From: Adhaeribacter aquaticus DSM 16391
GTDB lineage: Bacteria > Bacteroidota > Bacteroidia > Cytophagales > Hymenobacteraceae
Direction: 5' to 3'
DNA: 64,000 bases
Assembly: GCF_000473365.1 (NCBI RefSeq)
Contig: NZ_KI421517.1
Coordinates: 2,932,634-2,996,633 of the forward strand
Shown: positions 1-57,817 of the stretch, one piece after another
Layout: the number at the start of each line of letters is the position of its first letter
Position numbering within the stretch: the first letter of the stretch is position 1
The notes under the pieces: model-generated
Seen by the model: the letters and a program-made list of their open reading frames with translations, nothing else
What the model was told of the DNA's origin: nothing
Databases searched by the model: none
Made by a program: the position numbers and the translations under genes

Positions 1-2
1 AA

Positions 3-1196
3 GCCCCGATACCAATAGAGCCTACTTTAGCATCCTTGCAAAGCCGGGTGGTTACCTTGGAAACCACTGGTGTTACAGCTACGACTCCTAATACCAGTGA
101 TTTAAGTACAGCGGATACCAAACTTATTTTCCCTAATAAGTTATTTGTAGTGGAAGGTAGACCTTTTCAACTTTACCTTTCCTCTATGTTGCCAGATCGT
201 AATAAAACTGTAGCTAGTAGAGTTGCTGCTTTTCAATCTATTAATAATGCTAAGTTACCTTACAATATTTTATTTACTAACACTTTAGAAGTTAATCCAG
301 ATAGACTAGGAAGTACAGCTACTTTAACTCTTCGTAATGCCGGTTTAGCTGACCGGGAAATGCAATTACCCCTGACCGTTTATAAAAGCGCCGCTAATAA
401 GAGCAAGGCCGTAAGTTACCTTCACCTGGGGGATAGCTTGGTGGCACAGTCTACTACGCCTCTATTTGAGAAGTTTTCCTCTGGTTCTGTTACGCCTACC
501 TCATTAGGCACCCGCTTAAATGGTACGGTTTATTCCGAAGGTCGGGGCGGTTGGAAAGGAGCTGATTTTGTCTATATCCAAACGACCAATAACCATGCAC
601 CTTTACCAACAGGTTCGGAGGCTACTGCTTTAAGTTTAGGGAATGACACCCGGAACCCTTTTATTCGAGTAGCCACGGGTTCAGACGCGGCAGAAGATAT
701 TAAAAACGGTTACATCTTTGATTTTCGGTTCTACCTGAATCGGTTCAGTTTTGCCGATCCGGATGTGGTGGTTTTAAACTTTATGACCAACGACATTAAC
801 AATGATGGGACTAATATCGGGGTAGCCAACGCCTTAGAAGCTTACCGGATTATTATTGCTTCTATCCGGTCAGCTTGTCCAAATGCCAAGATAGGAATTG
901 CCATGCCGATGAATGGCAATAATTCTTACTTTAACCCGCTCTGGTACGATGGCTATGTCAAGACATTCTTAAAGCTTTGCGAATTATACGGTAACCAGCA
1001 AAATAACAACATTTATGTGATTGGCGCTCATGCTTACCTGACTGACCAGTTTATTTATCCCATGAACACTGTTTCAACGGATAGTCAAACCGGGTTAATC
1101 GAACAATCTCTAAATGATGGGACGCATCCAATTAACCCAATAGGGCGGCACTTATTTGCCGAACCGCTTTACCAGTTTATTCACGCTATTTGTTAA
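3..1196 (+). CDS. Phage tail-associated SGNH/GDSL hydrolase, 5' partial
   Basis: The reading frame is open to the left edge of the window, so the N-terminus is missing; a TTG at 36 could serve as a start but nothing favours it. The first 120 or so residues (counted from that TTG) look like a beta-rich structural region. The C-terminal domain is an SGNH hydrolase: block I is HLGDS with Ser134, an NFMTND block follows, and the C-terminus has DGTH with Asp361 and His364. This family includes acetylesterases that deacylate polysaccharides. Its place directly upstream of a holin/endolysin/spanin cassette suggests a tail fibre or baseplate protein that edits a host surface glycan. Domain assignment is good; the substrate is unknown. 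Confidence 0.75.
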   Translation, partial: APIPIEPTLASLQSRVVTLETTGVTATTPNTSDLSTADTKLIFPNKLFVVEGRPFQLYLSSMLPDRNKTVASRVAAFQSINNAKLPYNILFTNTLEVNPDRLGSTATLTLRNAGLADREMQLPLTVYKSAANKSKAVSYLHLGDSLVAQSTTPLFEKFSSGSVTPTSLGTRLNGTVYSEGRGGWKGADFVYIQTTNNHAPLPTGSEATALSLGNDTRNPFIRVATGSDAAEDIKNGYIFDFRFYLNRFSFADPDVVVLNFMTNDINNDGTNIGVANALEAYRIIIASIRSACPNAKIGIAMPMNGNNSYFNPLWYDGYVKTFLKLCELYGNQQNNNIYVIGAHAYLTDQFIYPMNTVSTDSQTGLIEQSLNDGTHPINPIGRHLFAEPLYQFIHAIC

Positions 1197-1258
1197 TTAA
1201 TATGAATAAAGCCATTTACACCTCCTGCACCCTACCAGTTTAAGCCATAACCTGTTCG

Positions 1259-1534
1259 ATGAAATTAGAAGAAGTCCTCATTAGTATTGCCGGTTTTATA
1301 ATCATTACGCTGCTGGGTGTGGTGGCTCATTTCCTGAAAAGGGTGCTGGATAAGATTGATTACATGGCTACCGAAATGATGGACTTAAAAAGCCAATTAA
1401 ACATTGTGGACTTCCTGAAAAATGAAGTCAATGAGCTTAAAAGGGAATGTGCATCACTGAGGAGGTCCTTTACTGAAATGGATAAAGTGATTTACAGCTT
1501 TATAAGAAAACATAAAGGAGACGATGGGCCTTAA
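1259..1534 (+). CDS. Small phage membrane protein with coiled coil (holin-like or holin partner)
   Basis: This 91-residue protein has one hydrophobic segment at about residues 5-27, followed by a charged heptad-like stretch to about residue 75. It lies 3 bp before the next gene and heads the probable lysis cassette. One N-terminal membrane segment plus a cytoplasmic coiled coil is common among small phage proteins next to holins, where they act as holins or antiholins. No family signature is recognisable, so the role rests on position and topology alone. Confidence 0.5.
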   Translation: MKLEEVLISIAGFIIITLLGVVAHFLKRVLDKIDYMATEMMDLKSQLNIVDFLKNEVNELKRECASLRRSFTEMDKVIYSFIRKHKGDDGP

Positions 1535-1537
1535 CCT

Positions 1538-1861
1538 ATGTTAGAAGTGATCAAAAAGATGTGGTGTGATACCACTAAAAACACCCTTACGGGTGAGTAC
1601 TCCATGAAGCGGCTGCAGGTGTTCCTGTTTACGTGGCTCTCGGTGGTTTTTAGCTTGCCTTATTTGATTGAGGTGGACTTGCCAGCCAAAAGCCCTATCA
1701 AGATTATCAAGCCGCCGATTGAGTTGATCCTGATATTCCTGGGTATTGCTTTGGGTAGTTCTTACCTGACTATTCTGGGGAAATTCCAGAACCGGAAAAG
1801 AGGAGATGAGAATGGAGTGCCATTGTCACCTGCTTATCCTGAACACACAACAAACCATTAA
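1538..1861 (+). CDS. Probable phage holin with two membrane segments
   Basis: The protein has 107 residues with two hydrophobic segments, near residues 27-45 and 60-82, and a hydrophilic C-terminal tail rich in basic residues and prolines. A two-helix hairpin directly upstream of an endolysin is the usual form of a class II holin, which makes the inner-membrane lesion that releases or activates the endolysin. It starts 3 bp after the preceding gene and ends 10 bp before the endolysin, so all are probably one transcript. The sequence itself is not a family I can name. Confidence 0.5.
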   Translation: MLEVIKKMWCDTTKNTLTGEYSMKRLQVFLFTWLSVVFSLPYLIEVDLPAKSPIKIIKPPIELILIFLGIALGSSYLTILGKFQNRKRGDENGVPLSPAYPEHTTNH

Positions 1862-1871
1862 TTAAAAACAT

Positions 1872-2441
1872 ATGGCTAATTTTTTACTTGCTTACAACAT
1901 CACAAAAAAAGCAGAAGGTGGTTGGAGCGACAACCCAAAAGACAGAGGCGGACAGACCTGGAAAGGAGTTGCCCGGAACATGCACCCGAAATGGAAAGGC
2001 TGGGAGCTAGTTGATAATGCTAAAAAGAAACCCGGCTTTCCTACCTCGCTTTACAAACTGGTAGACCTGCAGAAGCTGGTGCTGAAGTTTTATAAAATCC
2101 ATTTCTGGGATGTTAACCTATTAGACCAGGTACAGAATCAGGAAGTGGCTAATGAAATCTTTGATACCGGTGTTAACATGGGACCAGGTGTGCCAGTGAG
2201 ATTTGTACAACGGGCTATTAACTTCCTCAACAAGGGAGGCCAGTTAGCTCCAAACCTGAAAGTGGATGGTGTTTGTGGTCCTGCTACCGTAGCGGCTATC
2301 AATCAATATCCTTACCCTACCCGGTTGCTTAAAACCCTGAATGGTTTACAGGTTGCTAGGTATGTGGAGATTGTAGAGAAAGACCCTACACAGGAGGTTT
2401 TTGCAAATGGTTGGATCGAACAACGGGTGAGTTATGTATAA
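1872..2441 (+). CDS. GH108-family endolysin (N-acetylmuramidase) with peptidoglycan-binding domain
   Basis: This 189-residue protein begins with the GH108 signature: AEGGWSDNP, in which Glu15 is the expected catalytic acid, followed by RGGQTWKGV. The C-terminal half contains a predicted peptidoglycan-binding segment (VDGVCGPATVAAI, about residues 130-142) typical of the PG_binding_3 domain found with GH108. It would cleave the MurNAc-GlcNAc bond of the host wall. There is no signal peptide, so export should depend on a holin. Its stop codon overlaps the start of the downstream lipoprotein gene by 8 bp, which implies translational coupling inside a lysis cassette. Confidence 0.85.
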   Translation: MANFLLAYNITKKAEGGWSDNPKDRGGQTWKGVARNMHPKWKGWELVDNAKKKPGFPTSLYKLVDLQKLVLKFYKIHFWDVNLLDQVQNQEVANEIFDTGVNMGPGVPVRFVQRAINFLNKGGQLAPNLKVDGVCGPATVAAINQYPYPTRLLKTLNGLQVARYVEIVEKDPTQEVFANGWIEQRVSYV

Positions 2442-2970
2442 GCACTTCTACAAACTATTGCTGTTACTGCTGTTGCTACCATTGAGCTGCAAAACTGGTA
2501 AGCATGGTAACGACACCAATGTCGTTACCAAAGAGCCTACAATTAATCAGGCTAATTCCTTGCCTCCTTATGAGAATGGCTCACCATTGGATAGCCTTGC
2601 TTTCATGTACCCAGGTATTCAGCAAGCAATGGAGGAGGCCAAAAATCAAAAGGTGTCGAATTCGACAGGTTTAGACAATCCTAAAAAAACAGGATTTATA
2701 AGCCGGCTATTTGGATCTAAAAAAACTAAGCTCAAGAATTCAGCTATTAACATTAACTACCAGGTAGCACAAGGAGGTAGCTCCATTGCACCAGCTATGC
2801 AAACCGGCAACCAGGATACCAAAGAAAAGCTCAAAGGCCAGAACGCTGTCAAAGGAGATGGCAATACTTCCACAGCAAACAAATCAGATAAGAGCTTGCT
2901 TTGGGTGGTAGTGGTAGTAGTGATAGCAACCATAGCAGCCGCATACTTCATGAAAAGGAATAATGTATAG
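2434..2970 (+). CDS. Candidate unimolecular spanin: lipoprotein with C-terminal transmembrane anchor
   Basis: The 178-residue product starts with a lipoprotein signal (a run of eight leucines, then PLSC; Cys19 would be lipidated). It continues with about 130 hydrophilic, Ser/Asn/Lys-rich residues and ends in a strongly hydrophobic helix near residues 154-174 capped by KRNN. An outer-membrane lipid anchor plus an inner-membrane C-terminal helix in one chain is the architecture of u-spanins, such as T1 gp11, which fuse the two membranes in the last step of lysis. The 8-bp overlap with the endolysin gene fits. There is no sequence similarity I can cite, so the call is by topology and context. 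Some phage lipoproteins with other roles could look alike. Confidence 0.6.
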   Translation: MYKHFYKLLLLLLLLPLSCKTGKHGNDTNVVTKEPTINQANSLPPYENGSPLDSLAFMYPGIQQAMEEAKNQKVSNSTGLDNPKKTGFISRLFGSKKTKLKNSAININYQVAQGGSSIAPAMQTGNQDTKEKLKGQNAVKGDGNTSTANKSDKSLLWVVVVVVIATIAAAYFMKRNNV

Positions 2971-2976
2971 GGCTTT

Positions 2977-2997
2977 ACTAATGTGATTAGTTTTCGT
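2977..2997. repeat. Operator-like palindrome, copy 1
   Basis: ACTAATGTGATTAGTTTTCGT contains the perfect inverted repeat ACTAAT-GTG-ATTAGT. The same 21 bases recur at 3359-3379 with one change. Both copies sit just upstream of a promoter-like sequence, so a shared phage regulator is the simplest reading. Confidence 0.5.
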
Positions 2998-3004
2998 TGA
3001 TTTA

Positions 3005-3036
3005 TTTGTCTGTTTTACTGATTTAACGTATATTAG
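3005..3036 (+). promoter_or_regulatory. Bacteroidota-type promoter for the structured RNA
   Basis: A -33 TTTG at 3005-3008 is followed after 20 nt by TATATTAG at 3029-3036, which matches the TAnnTTTG core at all but one position. Transcription would begin near 3043, immediately before the GC-rich helices of the downstream RNA. The palindromic element at 2977-2991 lies just upstream. Confidence 0.5.
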
Positions 3037-3042
3037 CAGTAT

Positions 3043-3353
3043 AAAAAATGGGGTGAGTAGCAGTAATCAGTCTGGCTTCTAGGTTCGAACCAAGCACTCC
3101 ACATAACTAACCCGAAAGGGGAAGCGCGAAAGCACAAGTATTTATTTTAAGGATTAGCTACCCTTGGGATAGATATGTAAACCGGAAGGTTGTTTCCCCG
3201 CTGACGAAGCTTTTAAAGTTTAGAAGTAGCTACTGAATTTTAAAAGATGGGAGGTATCCTGAATATGATACCAAAGAACGGAGACTATGCTTTATATCTA
3301 TTTGCCCGTTCTCGTAAAAAGCAAAGCCTATCTAAATGATAGGCTTTTTTTAT
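3043..3353 (+). ncRNA. Orphan structured RNA at the prophage right end
   Basis: No sizeable reading frame fills this stretch, but helices are dense. GGGGTG 3050-3055 pairs with CACTCC 3095-3100 around an inner GCTT/AAGC and GGT-TCGA-ACC hairpin. CCC-GAAA-GGG lies at 3111-3120, and a GAAA-capped hairpin at 3124-3135. AACC-GGAA-GGTT is at 3180-3191, enclosed by GGGA 3167-3170 and TCCC 3195-3198. GGTATC/GATACC is at 3253-3272, and AGAACGG 3275-3281 pairs with CCGTTCT 3306-3312. A 10-bp terminator hairpin (3323-3347) with a T tract ends it. Several loops are GNRA-type, as in large folded RNAs. I do not recognise the family; it is not a tRNA, and no tmRNA tag frame is visible. Confidence 0.6.
3323..3353 (+). 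terminator. Rho-independent terminator of the structured RNA
   Basis: AAAGCCTATC at 3323-3332 pairs perfectly with GATAGGCTTT at 3338-3347 across a five-base loop, followed by a run of T. Confidence 0.8.
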
Positions 3354-3358
3354 TTAAT

Positions 3359-3431
3359 ACTAATGTAATTAGTTTTCGTATCTTTGCAATGCAAATTGAA
3401 AGAGAAGGGCGCTCCCATTGGGGGCGCTTTT
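3359..3431 (+). promoter_or_regulatory. Second operator copy, promoter core and short hairpin-terminated leader
   Basis: The 21-base element at 3359-3379 repeats the one at 2977-2997 with a single change. It abuts TATCTTTG at 3379-3386, a perfect TAnnTTTG core. About 20 nt downstream GCGCTCCC (3409-3416) pairs with GGGGGCGC (3420-3427) over an ATT loop and is followed by TTTT. The unit would yield a transcript of only about 40 nt unless read-through occurs. It could be a tiny RNA or an attenuator. The -33 box is not clear, and would overlap the palindrome. Confidence 0.4.
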
Positions 3432-3457
3432 CATTTATTAGCAGCAAAATTTCCAGA

Positions 3458-3501
3458 TATATCAGTAGTTATATCAGTAGTGTTTTGCATTAATACTGAT
3501 A
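3458..3501. repeat. Tandem and inverted TATCAGTA repeats beside the attachment site
   Basis: The 12-mer TATATCAGTAGT occurs twice in tandem (3458-3469 and 3470-3481), and an inverted core TACTGATA follows at 3494-3501. Their place 25-70 bp inside the proposed attR is where phage arm-type integrase or excisionase sites usually lie. Function is inferred from position. Confidence 0.4.
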
Positions 3502-3526
3502 GTCAACGGATTAAATAGTGCTGTCT

Positions 3527-3545
3527 GACTCCCTGCAGCTCCACA
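3527..3545 (+). other. Probable attR: residual 3' end of a tmRNA gene
   Basis: GACTCCCTGCAGCTCCACA resembles the 3' end of a Bacteroidota tmRNA: T-arm 3' strand GACTCCC, acceptor strand CAGCTCC, then discriminator A with no encoded CCA. No 5' part of an RNA gene precedes it, and a strong terminator follows at once. This is what remains at one end of a prophage integrated into the 3' end of ssrA, with the intact gene at the other end, outside this window. A tRNA with a GGGGCTG acceptor is the alternative. Confidence 0.5.
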
Positions 3546-3552
3546 ATTACAG

Positions 3553-3592
3553 AAACACCTGATTACTAAAAGTAGTCAGGTGTTTTGTTTTT
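3553..3592 (+). terminator. Strong terminator after attR, likely the native ssrA terminator
   Basis: AAACACCTGA at 3553-3562 pairs with TCAGGTGTTT at 3576-3585, extended inward by TACT/AGTA, and is followed by TTGTTTTT. It has no coding gene to serve upstream, but fits as the terminator of the interrupted RNA gene. Confidence 0.8.
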
Positions 3593-3690
3593 CAGCCTTT
3601 TGGGTTAATTTACGGTATACAAGATCACTGTATTATTATTTGTTGTCAAAACTACGTAATATTTCACGTCACTAAAAAGCAAATTAGGCA

Positions 3691-3852
3691 ATGGGAACCA
3701 GATCAGAAGACCAACAAAGGAAGCAGCGCCAAAAGGAATTTAAAGAAAGAAAAGAACACCAGGAGAGCCTCAGAGCAGCTGCAAAAAAAGCTAAACGTGA
3801 TACGGGTAAGAATGATGATGAGCCTGACGAGGGGCAAAAAACTGTAGAATAA
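3691..3852 (+). CDS. Small charged hypothetical protein
   Basis: An ATG at 3691 opens a 53-residue frame rich in Lys, Arg, Gln and Glu, with an acidic tail (NDDEPDEG) and no hydrophobic segment. It could be a small helical, nucleic-acid-associated protein like the short basic proteins common in Cytophagales, but no family is recognised. It is the first gene outside the proposed prophage end. The composition is unlike random AT-rich frames, which supports coding. Confidence 0.4.
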   Translation: MGTRSEDQQRKQRQKEFKERKEHQESLRAAAKKAKRDTGKNDDEPDEGQKTVE

Positions 3853-5338
3853 TTGTTTACTGGCTTATAGGTACCTTAAATTAGGGCCATTGTATCACTG
3901 GAATAATAAGCAAAAACTTTTTTATCCTGGTAAATATTACTTTTTCAGTTTATTGGTTGCATAGCCTGGTGTAACAAAACAGTGCTTTCTAGAATTGAGC
4001 TGATTGATTCCGCAGTTTGAGGTCAAGCCGGTTGTAAAAAAAATAGAGTTGTGAAAAGCGCAAAGGATTAACAGCGGTTGTATAGTTTGTTTATTACATA
4101 AGCTTTAAGTTAATTGCCAGTTTTCCAGCTATTTGCCAAGTGGTCCAACCCAAAGGATGAATGACCTGAGGAGTTTATTTATGGGGGCTTAAAATCCTAA
4201 GAGTTTGAAATTTCCTGCTAAATAATTCGAAGTATGGCACAGCAATGGGTTGTAGCTAGGCCTAGCAGAATGGAATAGAGCAGGTCAAATCATTGCTTAT
4301 AACAGGGCTTTATAGTGCTTTCGTGCTGTTGATGAACAAGAATTAATTGGCAGGAAAGTGTGATACTTTAATGTAGTGAATCCAAAAAGGCTTATAATAA
4401 AATAAATAAGAGTGTTTTATTAATGCGGACTAGGAATGTGTTTTTTAAACTTCAGCCTGTTTGCTTTCTCTGTTGTTTTCATTCTTAATAGTTGCTTGGT
4501 ATTTCCTCCTGCATGCCAATTTTTCTAATTTTAATATCCCCTATATAGAAGTATTAAACATTCCCTGTGATGGGCTCTTATTCCGAGGCTCGGTTTCTTA
4601 AGCATACGCCAGCGTGTCTTTTACAAAGTTTATCAAAATAAATCTGTTGATCTCCTGTCAATTCGCTTGTATTAAGCTACTTTTTTGCTATTTAATTCTT
4701 TCTTTAATTTTAAAATGTAGTTTACCAGTTTTGTGTTTTATTTATAAATATAAATAAATGAATTAATTATATATGTTGGTTGCTGGTGTAAAATGGATTT
4801 TAAATATAAAAATAGATTTTAACTGAGGAAAAATTATAATTTTTTAACTATTTAAAGGAAAAGATAAAATTGTACGATAAAGTTCAAAAAAGGTTTTTAT
4901 GTTTGTGTGGTAATTTAATTATTTGATGATAGTGTGCTGCTTTGGGTTTAGTTTTAATCTATCACTTAATGAGGCGTGAAGTTTGGCTATTTAACAAATT
5001 AGGGTTAGTGTAATTAGGAGAAAATTGGAGGTAAGACTGAGGCTGATCTAATAATATGAATTAATGGAATAGTGGGTTGGCAGGAATGAGTAGAAGTGGA
5101 AGGTTTGTGGTGTTCCTGAATATTATGGTAGTTGGTAGAGAGTCAAACTGAAAGTTTAATTCAGTGGGTTCAGTTAGGAAGTGCATCCTTGGGATGCTAA
5201 TAACTTGGCAGATGAAGCTTTAGTGGTTTTTAAAAGCAATACATTTCTAATTCTGCTAATAACAAGAAGGAAAATGATTATAAAGGTTTTAACTAATAAT
5301 TAATTTTTAATAATACATATGAAACAATAATTACTTTT
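3853..5338. other. Long AT-rich spacer without a recognisable gene
   Basis: About 1.5 kb contains no frame I would call a gene on either strand. It includes a perfect 12-bp palindrome, GCTAGGCCTAGC, at 4255-4266, and a very AT-rich stretch at about 4680-4900. No tRNA or clear terminator is seen. It may be decayed sequence near the integration site. Confidence 0.5.
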
Positions 5339-6184
5339 ATGAAAACAAATTTTACTTTTTGGGGAGCGTTCCTTCTCCTGTCTTTTACTGCATTTGTGCC
5401 TGTTAAAGCACAAGAAGATTCAAAAGTTGAGTCTGGCAACCTGTCAACTGCAAAATCAGTTCCTGGTAAGTTGGTATTTAGCGGGGCTGCTGGATTATCA
5501 GTGATGAATAGTGACAACCGTACCCAAGGTTACCAAAGCAATACTATTGGTTTAATGGAAGGAAATGGTTATGGTGTAAATCTGGGTGTGGGTGCCTTAT
5601 ACCAGTTTTCGCCCTACTTAGGTCTTTCCGGTAATTTAGAGTATAATAGATTTAAAGGCTTACAAGATAGTGGAGAGCGCATAGATATAAGTAGTTTTTC
5701 TTATAAGTCTGATGTGGCTTCTGTTTCTGCTTCTTTGTTGGTTAATCTTGGTAGTAAGAAAGCTATTGCCCGATTCTATGAGCAGCCAGATGAGCAATCA
5801 CTTCCTTTAAATAATTTATCGGATTTTCTTCGGGTTATTGGTAAAAATACGGTGGTATTGCCTTATTTGAAGGCGGGTGTAGGTTTAATGCACATGAATG
5901 CTTCTTCTTTTGTTGATGGTGTGAGAGAAGTTTCTGGTACAAAATTTCCGGTTATGGCAGCTATGGTGCCAGTAGGAGGGGGATTGCGATTCAGATTCTC
6001 AAATCAGGTAAGTGTGGCTCCTGAGGTTACTTATAATATAACTGTTTCCGATTATTTTGATAATAGAAAAGCACCCGATGGTGTTTTGGGGAAACAAGAT
6101 ATTTTTGTGAGTGGGGCTGTGAAATTATTTTATACACCCTCGGTTAAGAAGAAGATTAAAAAGACTAAAACTTTTCATAGTTAG
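5339..6184 (+). CDS. Outer-membrane beta-barrel protein, paralogue A
   Basis: The 281-residue protein begins with a Sec signal peptide cleaved near PVKAQ-E (about residue 25). The rest alternates polar and aromatic/hydrophobic residues with Gly and Asn turns, ending in a strand (IFVSGAVKLFYTP) like the last strand of small OmpA/OmpX-type barrels. The segment SVMNSDNR..GYQS..IGL..GNGYGVN is shared with the gene at 7703, which has the same length, so the two are a duplicated pair. The function is unknown; small barrels of this type serve as adhesins, stabilisers or narrow porins. A terminator follows at 6244. Confidence 0.7.
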   Translation: MKTNFTFWGAFLLLSFTAFVPVKAQEDSKVESGNLSTAKSVPGKLVFSGAAGLSVMNSDNRTQGYQSNTIGLMEGNGYGVNLGVGALYQFSPYLGLSGNLEYNRFKGLQDSGERIDISSFSYKSDVASVSASLLVNLGSKKAIARFYEQPDEQSLPLNNLSDFLRVIGKNTVVLPYLKAGVGLMHMNASSFVDGVREVSGTKFPVMAAMVPVGGGLRFRFSNQVSVAPEVTYNITVSDYFDNRKAPDGVLGKQDIFVSGAVKLFYTPSVKKKIKKTKTFHS

Positions 6185-6243
6185 TTATGTGAAGTAAGGC
6201 GTAAATGTTTTAGCGATTGAATATCCGGGTCTGATAAAGTTAG

Positions 6244-6277
6244 AAAGCCTCTCATAAGTTTTATGGGGGGCTTTTTA
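6244..6277 (+). terminator. Terminator after paralogue A
   Basis: AAAGCCTCTCATAA pairs with TTATGGGGGGCTTT (with G-T pairs), followed by TTT. It lies 60 bp after the barrel gene's stop. Confidence 0.6.
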
Positions 6278-6378
6278 GTTTTATTAAATTAGTTGTTGCA
6301 TAAGAGGTGTTGAAATGAAGCAAAGGGAGGTCGAGAAAAGTGTGTTAGTATGGCAATGTTTTGAATTTATAAAATTAA

Positions 6379-6786
6379 TCACTTCGTGTATAGCCAGTCT
6401 AAGGCAGTTTCTCGAGTTTCAAATAATTGGGCTTTAAGTGGTAAGTTAAAGTTGGCTTTCAAAAGAAGGATAGTTTGCAGTATATTTTGATCCCAATAGT
6501 AATCGGTAGATTCTATAATGGCTATTTTTCTCAAGTTAGATTGCGGTAATATTTCAGAGGTATGTATTAGTACTTCTTCTGGAATGCCATCCTGCAAAGG
6601 TATTTGTAAGTCCAATAAAAGTAGTTCTATTTCTTTATTCCCAAGTGCTTCCAGAAGGGGTATGATAGCTGCTTTTGTATTAATAGGTTCATTATTTGTT
6701 AAGGATTGGCAAGAGGCAAGAAGTAAGGTTTCGTTTATTTCCAGGTTTATTAAACGGGAGCCATCTTGATTAGAAGCTCTTTTCAT
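6379..6786 (-). CDS. STAS/SpoIIAA-like small protein
   Basis: The ATG at 6786 gives 135 residues; the longer frame would need a TTG. The middle has a hydrophobic strand ending ELLLLDLQIPL, then RKIAIIESTDYYWDQ, and the protein ends FETRETALDWL. That pattern, a beta strand with an Asp followed later by a closing 'F-x-x-x-x-x-A-x-x-WL', is typical of STAS/SpoIIAA-like cytosolic proteins common in Cytophagales. The molecular role of this group is not established. It lies between the two barrel paralogues on the opposite strand. A degenerate receiver domain is the alternative; the family call is moderate. Confidence 0.5.
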   Translation of the reverse strand: MKRASNQDGSRLINLEINETLLLASCQSLTNNEPINTKAAIIPLLEALGNKEIELLLLDLQIPLQDGIPEEVLIHTSEILPQSNLRKIAIIESTDYYWDQNILQTILLLKANFNLPLKAQLFETRETALDWLYTK

Positions 6787-7702
6787 ATGCAAAAATTAAG
6801 AAATGATATCTATAAAAATAGTACAAAATATAGCTCCTTAAAGTTTCATTAAGTAAATAAGGTTTTCTGATTGAAAGTTAGTTATTTATTGGCAGGTGTA
6901 TTAATGGTTTTAGGTGGGTGGTTTAGGTAAATGTTTCTACTTGTTCTCTTGGCTATTATTAATAAACAAACTTTAGCTGAATTTTAAGGTTGGTCAAGGT
7001 ATCAAGAAAAATAAGGCATGTTAAATTGCTTTTATTATATTTTATTAATTGTTGTTAAGCCTTCTAATATTCTAATGGATGCCATAAAGTTCTGATGGTC
7101 CTTTTGGTTTTTCCCGTTCCCTTTCTTTATTATTTATCAAGTTTGTATTTTCATCTGAAAAAAAGCACCTCGCAAAATTTTCTGTTTTTAAAAAGTTATA
7201 ATTGTATTTGTTTTATAGTAAAAAATTTGGGTGAATCCTGTAGTGAAGAGAATTAAACTATTGTAGATATAGTAATAAATTAATATATAACGCCTTTAAT
7301 AGGGTTTTTAGAAGAATTAATTTGAACTTTTAAGGTATTTTTAATATTCGAAGTGAAAAATATGGATGTTAAAAAAAAGCTTTTTACATTCGCATAAATT
7401 ATTAAAATTCTAATAGTTGTTAAAGGTTTTATTTCAATGAAAAACATTTACAGGTTAAAATTACAGGGTGTGCAGCTGATTAATATTTAGTCTATTACCT
7501 GGTAGGTATTTTAGCTCTTAAAGAAAACGGAGCACCAAAGTGTATACATTTAGTAATGACTGCTTCTGTGTTAAGTACAAATAGAGGTGTGCTTCAATAT
7601 ATTTTACCTTTTCATTGAAATTCTTCCTTTAAGCAAGCTGGTGTAGCTTACTTATTTAGAAACCAGATTAATGAATAATATTTTTCCTTTTGAATTTTCT
7701 TT
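6787..7702. other. AT-rich spacer upstream of paralogue B
   Basis: About 0.9 kb with no convincing gene, RNA or terminator. It presumably holds the divergent promoters of the STAS-like gene and the second barrel gene, but no full TTTG-N19-TAnnTTTG was found. Confidence 0.45.
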
Positions 7703-8548
7703 ATGAAAACAACCTTTACTTTTTTAGGAGTTTTTTGGCTCCACTTTTTTGTTGTCATAGCTCCGGTTAAAGCTCAATACACTCCTAAATTAAGCCTAAA
7801 GAACAGCCTTCTTAGAAATGCTATTTTTGATAATGAAAAGCTCGCGCTTACAGGAGCATTAGGTATGTCTGTTATGAATAGTGATAACCGGGCCCGTGGA
7901 TACCAAAGCAAAGGCATAGGTTTAATTAAAGGCAATGGGTACGGTGTCAATGCAAGTGTGGGAGCACTTTATCAAGTGGTGCCAAATATAGGAGTTTCCG
8001 GAAGTTTGGAATATAATCAGTTTAAAGGCTTGCAAGACCAGGAAGCACCGGTAGAGAAGAGAACAGGTAGTTTTACCTTTCAATCCAATGTAATAGCGGC
8101 TTCCTCTTCTGTTGTTATAAATCTAGCGCCCAAAAACACGATTGCTAAATTTAATAAACCTACCGGACACGTACGGTTTTCAGATTCTCCTTTCGAAAAC
8201 TTTATTCATATTATTCAGAAACATTGTGTCGCATTGCCTTATGTTAAAGCAGGTGTTTCTATAATTCAAGTTAAAGCGGCTACGCTTACGGGTAACGATT
8301 TGGAAGTAGCAAATGGTAAAACACCTCTTTTCTCAGCTAGTCTCCCGGTAGGTGGTGGTATCCGGCTCCGATATTCCGATAATATAAGTATTGCTCCTGA
8401 ATTTACCTACAACTTAACCTTTTCCGATTACCTGGATAATACAAAAATGAAAGGTGGGTATCTGGGGCCAAATGATAATTTTGTAAGCGGTGCCATAAAA
8501 ATATTCTATACACCAGCTGGTCCAAAGAAAAAGATCAGACAATTATAA
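7703..8548 (+). CDS. Outer-membrane beta-barrel protein, paralogue B
   Basis: 281 residues with a signal peptide cleaved near PVKAQ-Y and the same layout as the gene at 5339. Roughly half the residues match by eye, including SVMNSDNR, GNGYGVN, YNQFKGLQD and the closing strand FVSGAIKIFYTP. Equal length and shared turns show a duplication that has since diverged mainly in the signal peptide and the middle loop (about residues 145-175). No substrate or partner can be named. A hairpin terminator follows 45 bp after the stop. Confidence 0.7.
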   Translation: MKTTFTFLGVFWLHFFVVIAPVKAQYTPKLSLKNSLLRNAIFDNEKLALTGALGMSVMNSDNRARGYQSKGIGLIKGNGYGVNASVGALYQVVPNIGVSGSLEYNQFKGLQDQEAPVEKRTGSFTFQSNVIAASSSVVINLAPKNTIAKFNKPTGHVRFSDSPFENFIHIIQKHCVALPYVKAGVSIIQVKAATLTGNDLEVANGKTPLFSASLPVGGGIRLRYSDNISIAPEFTYNLTFSDYLDNTKMKGGYLGPNDNFVSGAIKIFYTPAGPKKKIRQL

Positions 8549-8593
8549 TTTCAGTTGCTCAAATTAGTTTAAATAGTAAAGTTAATGTAATTT

Positions 8594-8631
8594 ATACCCT
8601 GTGTGCCACAAAAGTATACAGGGTATTTTTA
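8594..8631 (+). terminator. Terminator after paralogue B
   Basis: ATACCCTGT at 8594-8602 pairs with ACAGGGTAT at 8618-8626, followed by TTTT. Confidence 0.7.
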
Positions 8632-8800
8632 TATAATTAAACAAACGAGGCGGAGAGTTGATACTAAGTTATATAAATGGAATCTGGTAACCGGCCCTCT
8701 AAGGGGATTTTATTTCTTTATAATTTTTCGGCTTACAATCAGGTGGTAATTGGATTGAGCCGGAACGACTTTATTAGGAAATCAAAATTACATTAAATAT

Positions 8801-8838
8801 AAAAAGGAAGGGCTGCATTAATGCGGCCCTTCCTTTTT
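8801..8838. terminator. Bidirectional terminator
   Basis: AAAAAGGAAGGGC pairs perfectly with GCCCTTCCTTTTT around a TGCATTAATGCG loop. A and T runs on both sides allow action in either direction, and it faces the small minus-strand gene ending at 8950. Confidence 0.75.
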
Positions 8839-8949
8839 ATCAAAAACAGGTATTGTATTTATACGGTGTTTCCGTTTATAAGTTATATTACTACTTGGTT
8901 AACCGGTTTTTCTGCTGTTTAATTGGAATAACCGTTGCTTAAATTTAAC

Positions 8950-9108
8950 TTAAGATTTTTGGCCAGACGCGCTTTTAGCTTTAGCCAGTAAATCTTTAAG
9001 CTTTTTTAATCGCAGTTCATCCTGTTTTTTGTTTAAAACATTTTCTGGTAAATGCACAGAATAATTCTTTAGGTTGTTGTTTCCAGAAGGAGTAGAACTT
9101 TTAGCCAT
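8950..9108 (-). CDS. Small basic hypothetical protein
   Basis: The ATG at 9108 gives 52 residues: MAKSSTPSGNNN, then a short helical, Lys-rich body (KKQDELRLKKLKDLLAKAK). An upstream in-frame start at 9186 would add 26 hydrophobic residues, but the MAKS start matches how small cytosolic proteins of this kind begin. No family is recognised. It is divergent from the exonuclease gene at 9274. Confidence 0.4.
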   Translation of the reverse strand: MAKSSTPSGNNNLKNYSVHLPENVLNKKQDELRLKKLKDLLAKAKSASGQKS

Positions 9109-57476: not shown

Positions 57477-57574
57477 AACGCAATACCTTAATCATAAAAA
57501 AATAGGTAAAGCTTTAGGAGGAGGAAATGGCTGGACGCCGGCCGAAAATACCGGACAAATAATAAAGTTAGCTC

Positions 57575-57652
57575 ACTTTTCCCTTCGCAGGCATTATCCT
57601 GTTCAGGTTCCAAGGGTATTATCTCAGCCTTTCAGCACCCCTAAAGTCGAAC
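57575..57652 (-). ncRNA. TPP riboswitch controlling the thi operon
   Basis: On the minus strand the conserved thi-box elements appear in order: GGGGTGC, CTGAGATAATACCC, TTGGAACCTGAACAGGATAATGC and the closing GCGAAGGGA. It lies about 100 nt before thiS. Binding of thiamine pyrophosphate should lower thiS-thiC expression. Confidence 0.96.
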
Positions 57653-57753
57653 CAAATGTAATTAATTTATAACTAGATAAACAAATTGATTTAAAAATAT
57701 TTTATTTAGAAGACTAGCTAATATAAAAAGATACAGTAAGTTACCTATTATAA

Positions 57754-57791
57754 ACAAAAAAAGGTGCCCCTATAGGGGCACCTTTTTTTGT
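57754..57791 (-). terminator. Terminator after typA
   Basis: ACAAAAAAAGGTGCCCC pairs perfectly with GGGGCACCTTTTTTTGT over a TATA loop, a 17-bp stem that serves either direction. Confidence 0.9.
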
Positions 57792-57817
57792 TTATAAGGG
57801 AATATGTTATAATTGGG

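Follow-up and report, generated by a model that had tools for sequence, protein, structure and literature searches.

A candidate phage accessory RNA gene with complementary hairpin loops at a prophage right end of Adhaeribacter aquaticus

The right end of a prophage in Adhaeribacter aquaticus DSM 16391 contains a stretch of about 310 nt that is probably a real RNA gene (3043-3353, plus strand). Positions refer to the window, i.e., the whole stretch of 64,000 nucleotides that was analysed (G000:C1:2932634-2996633), whose first 3.5 kb are the prophage right end. In the reading preferred here, to which we give about an even chance, the phage carries the stretch as an accessory gene for an RNA that would fold around a kissing loop and act in trans. 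This reading is supported by the z score of the core, the rank and strand asymmetry of the corresponding tile, the match between two loops, the G-U pairs, the terminator, the absence of the segment from sister prophages, and the repeats that bracket it. It is weakened by the single sequence at hand, by a promoter match and outer domains at chance level, and by the post hoc nature of the loop test.

Position at the prophage right end

The prophage right end begins with a GDSL-like ORF (36-1196), with Pfam scores slightly below the cut-offs, followed by two small genes and by an endolysin gene of the GH108 type (1872-2441, plus strand; Glyco_hydro_108, E 3.3e-19; PG_binding_3, E 1.1e-14). The last gene ahead of the RNA encodes a small lipoprotein-like product (2434-2970, plus strand), which matched no Pfam profile at E 0.01 and no PHROGs profile at E 0.1, and which may be called spanin-like by its position only; an ORF resembling it by eye occupies the equivalent place in L043. 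Leftward, the translated ORFs suggest that the prophage goes on with genes for tail, capsid, and terminase, and that a repressor and an integrase come last. The gene order thus bears out the sequence-only reading, which had placed the RNA between the lysis genes and the attachment site, where accessory genes are carried.

Regarding the relatives of this prophage, a protein search of genome contigs retrieved three relatives of the terminase-like gene at 35-37%, the distant relatives belonging to Paludibacter, Flavobacteriaceae, and one Spirochaetota MAG, and none of a 107-aa gene. The relatives in Paludibacter and Flavobacteriaceae agree with an assignment of the host to Bacteroidota, as do the promoter-like boxes. 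The neighbour search with proteins in IMG/VR gave five endolysin relatives and one capsid relative, and none for two other genes; in the 'phages' set, two genes had no protein relatives.

Strength and strand specificity of the fold

The ends of the proposed gene were placed by a promoter-like site and a terminator, and the predicted product is about 300 nt long. Over the full length, the plus strand folds with a z score of -4.23, and none of 400 shuffles was as good; this was also the case after removal of the terminator (z -2.91, 0/400) and for the core at 3118-3246 (z -5.48, 0/400). The antisense strand without the terminator gave a z score of -0.08, with 177 of 400 shuffles as good, and a folding tool applied with the terminator kept returned -3.99 for the sense strand (0/100) and -1.83 for the antisense strand (4/100). 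It is confirmed that the plus-strand fold of 3043-3353 exceeds chance and is strand-specific.

The window was also tiled into 912 tiles of 140 bases, with rough z values from 16 shuffles each. Tile 3109(+) ranks eighth (z -5.71), and its antisense scores -0.27. Of the seven tiles with a lower z, six belong to long inverted repeats, in four regions, where either strand scores, and the remaining one, 3389(+), adjoins the RNA stretch and contains a terminator at 3404-3432. Long inverted repeats with no spacer were seen at 8799-8840 (21 bases per arm, 95%) and 57748-57797 (25 bases per arm, 100%); both score on both strands and are perhaps two-way terminators.

The best fold comprises 86 pairs, involving 172 of 279 positions, and G-U pairs make up 15 of these 86 and 8 of the 47 pairs of the core. 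Together with the strand asymmetry, the G-U pairs point to an RNA rather than to DNA hairpins, and a DNA-level site such as att arms was dropped as a candidate because the core fold is strand-specific. The fold signal is not evenly distributed, as positions 3049-3102 at the 5' side (z -0.47) and 3247-3321 at the 3' side (z -1.23) are at chance level. Since the core is above chance and neither the outer parts nor the promoter match are, the solid part of the proposed gene is its core and not its ends.

Anatomy of the core and match between its loops

The core contains a multibranch domain (3118-3199, plus strand; z -4.44, 0/400), with pair probabilities mostly above 0.95, in which a closing stem (3118-3125/3192-3199) surrounds a multiloop with a GAAA hairpin, a 15-bp hairpin, and a GGAA hairpin. 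The 15-bp hairpin (3138-3176, plus strand) exposes the loop AUUAGCUAC at 3153-3161, and 14 of its 15 pairs have probabilities of 0.96-1.0, the outermost having 0.67. Beyond the multibranch domain lies a 14-bp hairpin (3210-3246, plus strand) with the loop AAGUAGCUA at 3224-3232, in which 13 of 14 pairs have probabilities of 0.86-1.0 and the outermost 0.43. Three GNRA loops had been proposed, and two of them are present in the best fold (GAAA at 3128-3131 and GGAA at 3184-3187). The third one, a CCC-GAAA-GGG hairpin at 3111-3120, is absent from it and would need positions 3118-3120, which are also used by the favoured stem 3118-3125/3192-3199. Outside the core, arrangement A contains a long-range stem (3051-3060/3298-3307; -77.2 kcal/mol), and arrangement B a local 5' stem (3049-3055/3095-3101) plus a 3' hairpin (-75.1 kcal/mol). 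The energies of A and B differ so little that the overall shape is not fixed.

Both hairpin loops are 9 nt long, and seven Watson-Crick pairs are possible between 3155-3161 and 3226-3232, both on the plus strand, which are the two candidate strands of a kissing loop; this complementarity was absent from the sequence-only reading. Of 1000 shuffles, 3 showed a seven-pair loop match, and of 456 window tiles taken from both strands only one did, namely the present stretch on the plus strand, in a test that was devised after the loops had already been seen and that reads through inner helices of fewer than three pairs, a rule favouring this case. The match is absent from the antisense fold. When the threshold was lowered to six pairs, the numbers rose to 18 among the 1000 shuffles and 12 among the 456 tiles. 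Two weak internal pairs in the loop 3224-3232 (0.73-0.74) compete with the predicted kiss, and forbidding all pairs within both loops costs 0.8 kcal/mol (-76.4 vs. -77.2 kcal/mol).

The loop match bears on how the RNA could act. A base-pairing regulatory small RNA, with loops directed against messages of the host or of rival phages, would have a precedent in DicF, which acts by base pairing. The excerpt of PMC5069750 describes DicF as a prophage-encoded small RNA with a possible effect on the host, and the present stretch resembles it as a prophage gene for a small RNA that ends in a terminator and may affect the host. The two differ in the compact fold and the mutually complementary loops found here, their sequences having been compared through the Rfam scans. 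We regard this mode of action as unlikely, given that each of the main loops is complementary to the other, so that the kiss would consume them and leave antisense pairing less likely, and that 172 of 279 positions are already paired in the best fold.

The palindrome UAGCUA is present in both 9-nt loops, and the bare-duplex energies are -6.5 kcal/mol for loop1-loop1, -5.5 kcal/mol for loop2-loop2, and -8.2 kcal/mol for loop1-loop2. A loop palindrome able to form a kissing complex recalls the HIV-1 DIS, as far as the partial account consulted describes it, as a physical analogue only and with no common descent meant. The difference is that the seven matching bases here belong to distinct loops within a single molecule, which makes an intramolecular kiss at least as likely. 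As UAGCUA occurs in both main loops, the loops of the intramolecular kiss could also join separate molecules. A compact class of self-assembling phage RNAs, linked by UAGCUA loops into dimers or chains, is very improbable in our estimate; if true, such an RNA would be a behavioural counterpart, in only 300 nt, of the RNA-only phage assemblies.

Promoter-like site, terminator, and reading frames

A promoter-like match, TTTG-N20-TATATTAG, is found upstream at 3005-3036 (plus strand) with one mismatch, and can be compared with the TAnnTTTG promoter box given in the excerpt of PMC9723704. With up to one mismatch, the pattern occurs 13 times in the window, where 17.4 occurrences are expected; this chance frequency makes the match no evidence by itself. 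Hence, of the promoter that had been claimed, the pattern is there and its significance is not. The claimed 10-bp terminator is strong: at 3323-3347 (plus strand), 10 pairs are followed by a T run, and the element was also found as an inverted repeat.

Likewise, the statement that the stretch has no sizeable ORF stands, since the stop-to-stop frames wholly within it reach at most 41 codons (3111-3236) and no frame that opens with a start codon and is likewise contained in the stretch encodes more than 30 aa (3247-3339). A 68-aa ATG frame (3287-3493) starts inside, reads through the terminator, and continues past the stretch, and a 34-aa frame on the minus strand (3033-3137) extends 10 bases outside. 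Altogether, 14 stop-to-stop frames overlap 2990-3370, and the six of them that were screened had no PHROGs match; a coding remnant was dropped as a candidate for the lack of such a match among the screened frames. If the stretch were instead an mRNA with a structured leader, encoding a tiny protein, e.g., a type I toxin, it would use the 30-codon ATG frame at 3247-3339, which terminates within the terminator. We consider this extremely unlikely: there is no PHROGs match, no homologue shows conservation of the frame, and the frame begins only where the fold signal (3118-3246) has ended, although a structured leader would equally allow that.

A bracketed cassette absent from two sister prophages

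The same genome contains two further prophage right ends, L017 and L018, with flanks matching those of the RNA stretch. The window matches L018 at 95.4% (15-2429), 79.6% (2440-2997), and 79.0% (3358-3493), and L017 at 86.7% (2870-2997) and 95.1% (3358-3438), the left match to L017 being shortened by a nearby N run. Exactly 2998-3357 is missing from both, so that the segment is present in one and absent from two of the three sister prophages. It is bracketed by a 22-bp direct repeat, TACTAATGTRATTAGTTTTCGT, whose left copy (2976-2997, plus strand) ends where the homology to the sisters stops and whose right copy stands at 3358-3379 (plus strand); according to a repeat search, the copies are identical at 21 of 22 positions and spaced by 382. 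Each sister prophage has a single copy of a close form of TACTAATGTRATTAGTTTTCGT, and two more places in the genome match it with three mismatches. As a pattern with one mismatch allowed and two positions free, it was found in none of the 203 other genomes of the family.

The shared flanks, the exact absence of 2998-3357, and the bracketing repeat indicate that the segment is a cassette gained or lost since the prophages diverged. Deletion between the 22-bp repeats would give the state of the sisters, and insertion would be the reverse. The same repeats, together with the three prophage right ends that look exchanged (see below) and the lack of any homologue found, would suit a non-functional relic of another element left between recombined right ends, folding by accident or owing to a past function. 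This is an improbable origin in our view, since the core z score of -5.5, the intact loop-loop match, and the intact terminator argue against long decay.

Attachment sites and exchanged right ends

The proposed right attachment core (3525-3544, plus strand) shares 18 of 20 positions with the host tmRNA gene at its 3' end (G000:C1:3733-3752). This tmRNA gene (L069 1501-1869; G000:C1:3733-4101), with the tag GESNYAMAA, resembles a phage attachment site, and an integrase-like ORF beside it seems, by reading, to be directed away from it. Moreover, the left end of the window's prophage (L029 19649-19786) matches the right end of the second prophage (L017 9432-9661) over 23 bases (95.7%, E 2e-4). 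A second piece of 16 bases (100%, E 0.03) joins the same pair of ends, and is weak evidence because the same search gave two other matches at E 0.01-0.03 that were taken as chance. The cross-matching left and right ends and the match to the tmRNA site suggest that right ends have been exchanged between prophages, which looks like the result of an inversion between similar lysis genes or of an assembly error, the latter being quite possible given the N runs in the sister prophages.

Next to the right repeat, a promoter-like TATCTTTG is followed within about 20 bases by the terminator 3404-3432 (whole unit 3379-3432, plus strand), and this arrangement is kept in all three prophage right ends. 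Compared with L018, the stem 3404-3432 shows three one-sided changes, all of which keep the pairing. This unit perhaps gives rise to an RNA of about 45 nt or serves as an insulator.

An insulating role could also be considered for the RNA itself, as a cis-acting leader or insulator that keeps late-gene transcription from running on into the integrase gene or adjusts how much of it does so. In the circular phage, the right and left ends would be joined at attP, placing the RNA and the terminators upstream of the integrase, provided that this right end is paired with a left end of the tmRNA type, the integrase there sharing the orientation of the RNA and pointing away from attP. The match of the attachment core to the tmRNA 3' end, the integrase-like ORF read away from that site, and the ATATCAGTAGT-type repeats seen by eye on both ends agree with this arrangement. 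However, two strong terminators (3323-3347 and 3404-3432) come after the RNA, the sisters have one terminator there without the RNA, and the elaborate core would be superfluous for insulation. Furthermore, the scheme fails if the partner is the left end 40 kb upstream in the assembly, where the integrase-like gene seems, by reading, to be directed towards the attachment site. We therefore rate a cis-acting role as doubtful.

Comparison with known RNA families

The assertion that the stretch matches no known RNA family was upheld, since none of 4227 Rfam 15 models matched 3043-3353 at the gathering cut-off. A permissive Rfam scan of 2960-3460 gave 19 matches, all below the cut-off, the best with 26.9 bits against a cut-off of 60. 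A TPP riboswitch at 57563-57652 on the minus strand (71 bits) is the only Rfam match at the cut-off in the whole window. Equally, the stretch was recognised as neither tRNA nor tmRNA, none being detected by ARAGORN in the window or by the Rfam models. Within 3049-3101, GGTTCGAACC is like a T arm and 7 bp can form between 3049-3055 and 3095-3101, which recalls a tRNA minihelix. A tRNA or tmRNA mimic was dropped because shuffled sequences fold as well as the 5' part. A retron was also dropped, as Pfam revealed no reverse transcriptase in the ORFs 36-1193, 1872-2438, 2434-2967, and 5339-6181, which are four of the five ORFs that reach 150 aa or more within positions 1-9000 (7703-8548 being the one left out).

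ROOL RNAs are near 600 nt long. According to the excerpt of PMC12286853, ROOL and GOLLD are encoded by phages or prophages, have no known function, include kissing loops among their contacts, and both have Rfam profiles, and many GOLLD RNAs exceed 800 nt; neither matched in either Rfam scan of the stretch. The RNA described here is like them in being prophage-encoded and in its predicted kissing loop, and unlike them in its shorter length, in the single kissing loop found, and in the absence of a tRNA gene from the window.

Search for relatives

Relatives were sought with BLASTN, exact patterns, and R1, a single-sequence covariance model of 3109-3250; as such a model and such patterns reach close relatives only, 'orphan' means here an orphan within the collections searched. 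BLASTN gave no credible relative in the 'phages' set (36 records; among the 20 listed, the matches span 8-10% of the query) and none in 'plasmids'. Among 98 related genomes, including its own, only the terminator was matched, in two others. In a class sample of 395 genomes, its own included, 11 others had pieces of 21-51 bases, none a credible relative: six were recovered by plus-strand BLASTN as short matches, L066 and L067 are weak R1 alignments, and L062, G934, and G961 are known as search rows alone.

In overlapping genome sets, R1 scored only the top-ranking places of a permissive initial screen of each genome, at most 8 for the order and phylum and 15 for the family. Besides its own genome, it reported three of 390 genomes in the order sample at E <= 0.1, four of 395 (six places) in the phylum sample at E <= 0.05, and two of 204 in the family at E <= 0.01, none of them credible. 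The top R1 score, in G036 (26.4 bits), lies inside a 220-codon ORF, the places in G816 lie inside repeat-rich ORFs, and the alignments of G552, G727, G196, G896, G348, and G371 show broken pairs, large deletions, or insertions; G348 (20.7 bits) is in a stretch without an ORF longer than 78 codons and, thus, is not excluded by coding. The score in G540 was weak (18.4 bits); this hit and the one in G348 retain some chance of being relatives. Seven individually chosen records or genomes gave one weak match. Four exact-pattern scans of IMG/VR yielded 6, 0, 1, and 68 stretches, and R1 reached at most 15.1 bits over all 75. Elsewhere, R1 scored 17.7 bits on the antisense of one window hairpin and 11 bits in L029, and gave no scores on the further loci examined. 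With no homologue found for an analysis of covariation, the case relies on one sequence. Of the results set out beforehand as refuting the proposal, none was obtained, the one within reach of a single sequence being a match to a known Rfam family.

Proposed function and significance

In the preferred reading of a phage accessory RNA gene, its own promoter would drive transcription towards the attachment site, ending at 3347-3353, to yield a product of about 300 nt with a multibranch core, GNRA-capped hairpins, and a second long hairpin. The 7-bp kissing loop would lock the core and the second hairpin together, and the folded RNA would work in trans, most likely by sequestering a protein or serving as its decoy. 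The gene would be part of a cassette some 380 bp long, which recombination between the 22-bp direct repeats added or removed. Transcription, kissing contact, action in trans, target, and benefit are elements that we infer. The original proposal of a new phage-encoded RNA is partly supported: it is strengthened by the strand-specific fold, the lack of an Rfam family, the accessory position, and the absence from two sisters, and loses the promoter, which is at chance level. The anti-defence, regulatory, and packaging roles suggested with it are conjectural.

To our knowledge, the structured RNAs carried as accessory genes by phages are mostly without a known function. A small RNA with a testable kissing loop, accompanied in the same genome by two sister prophages free of it, would make a tractable system for the study of phage-RNA function.
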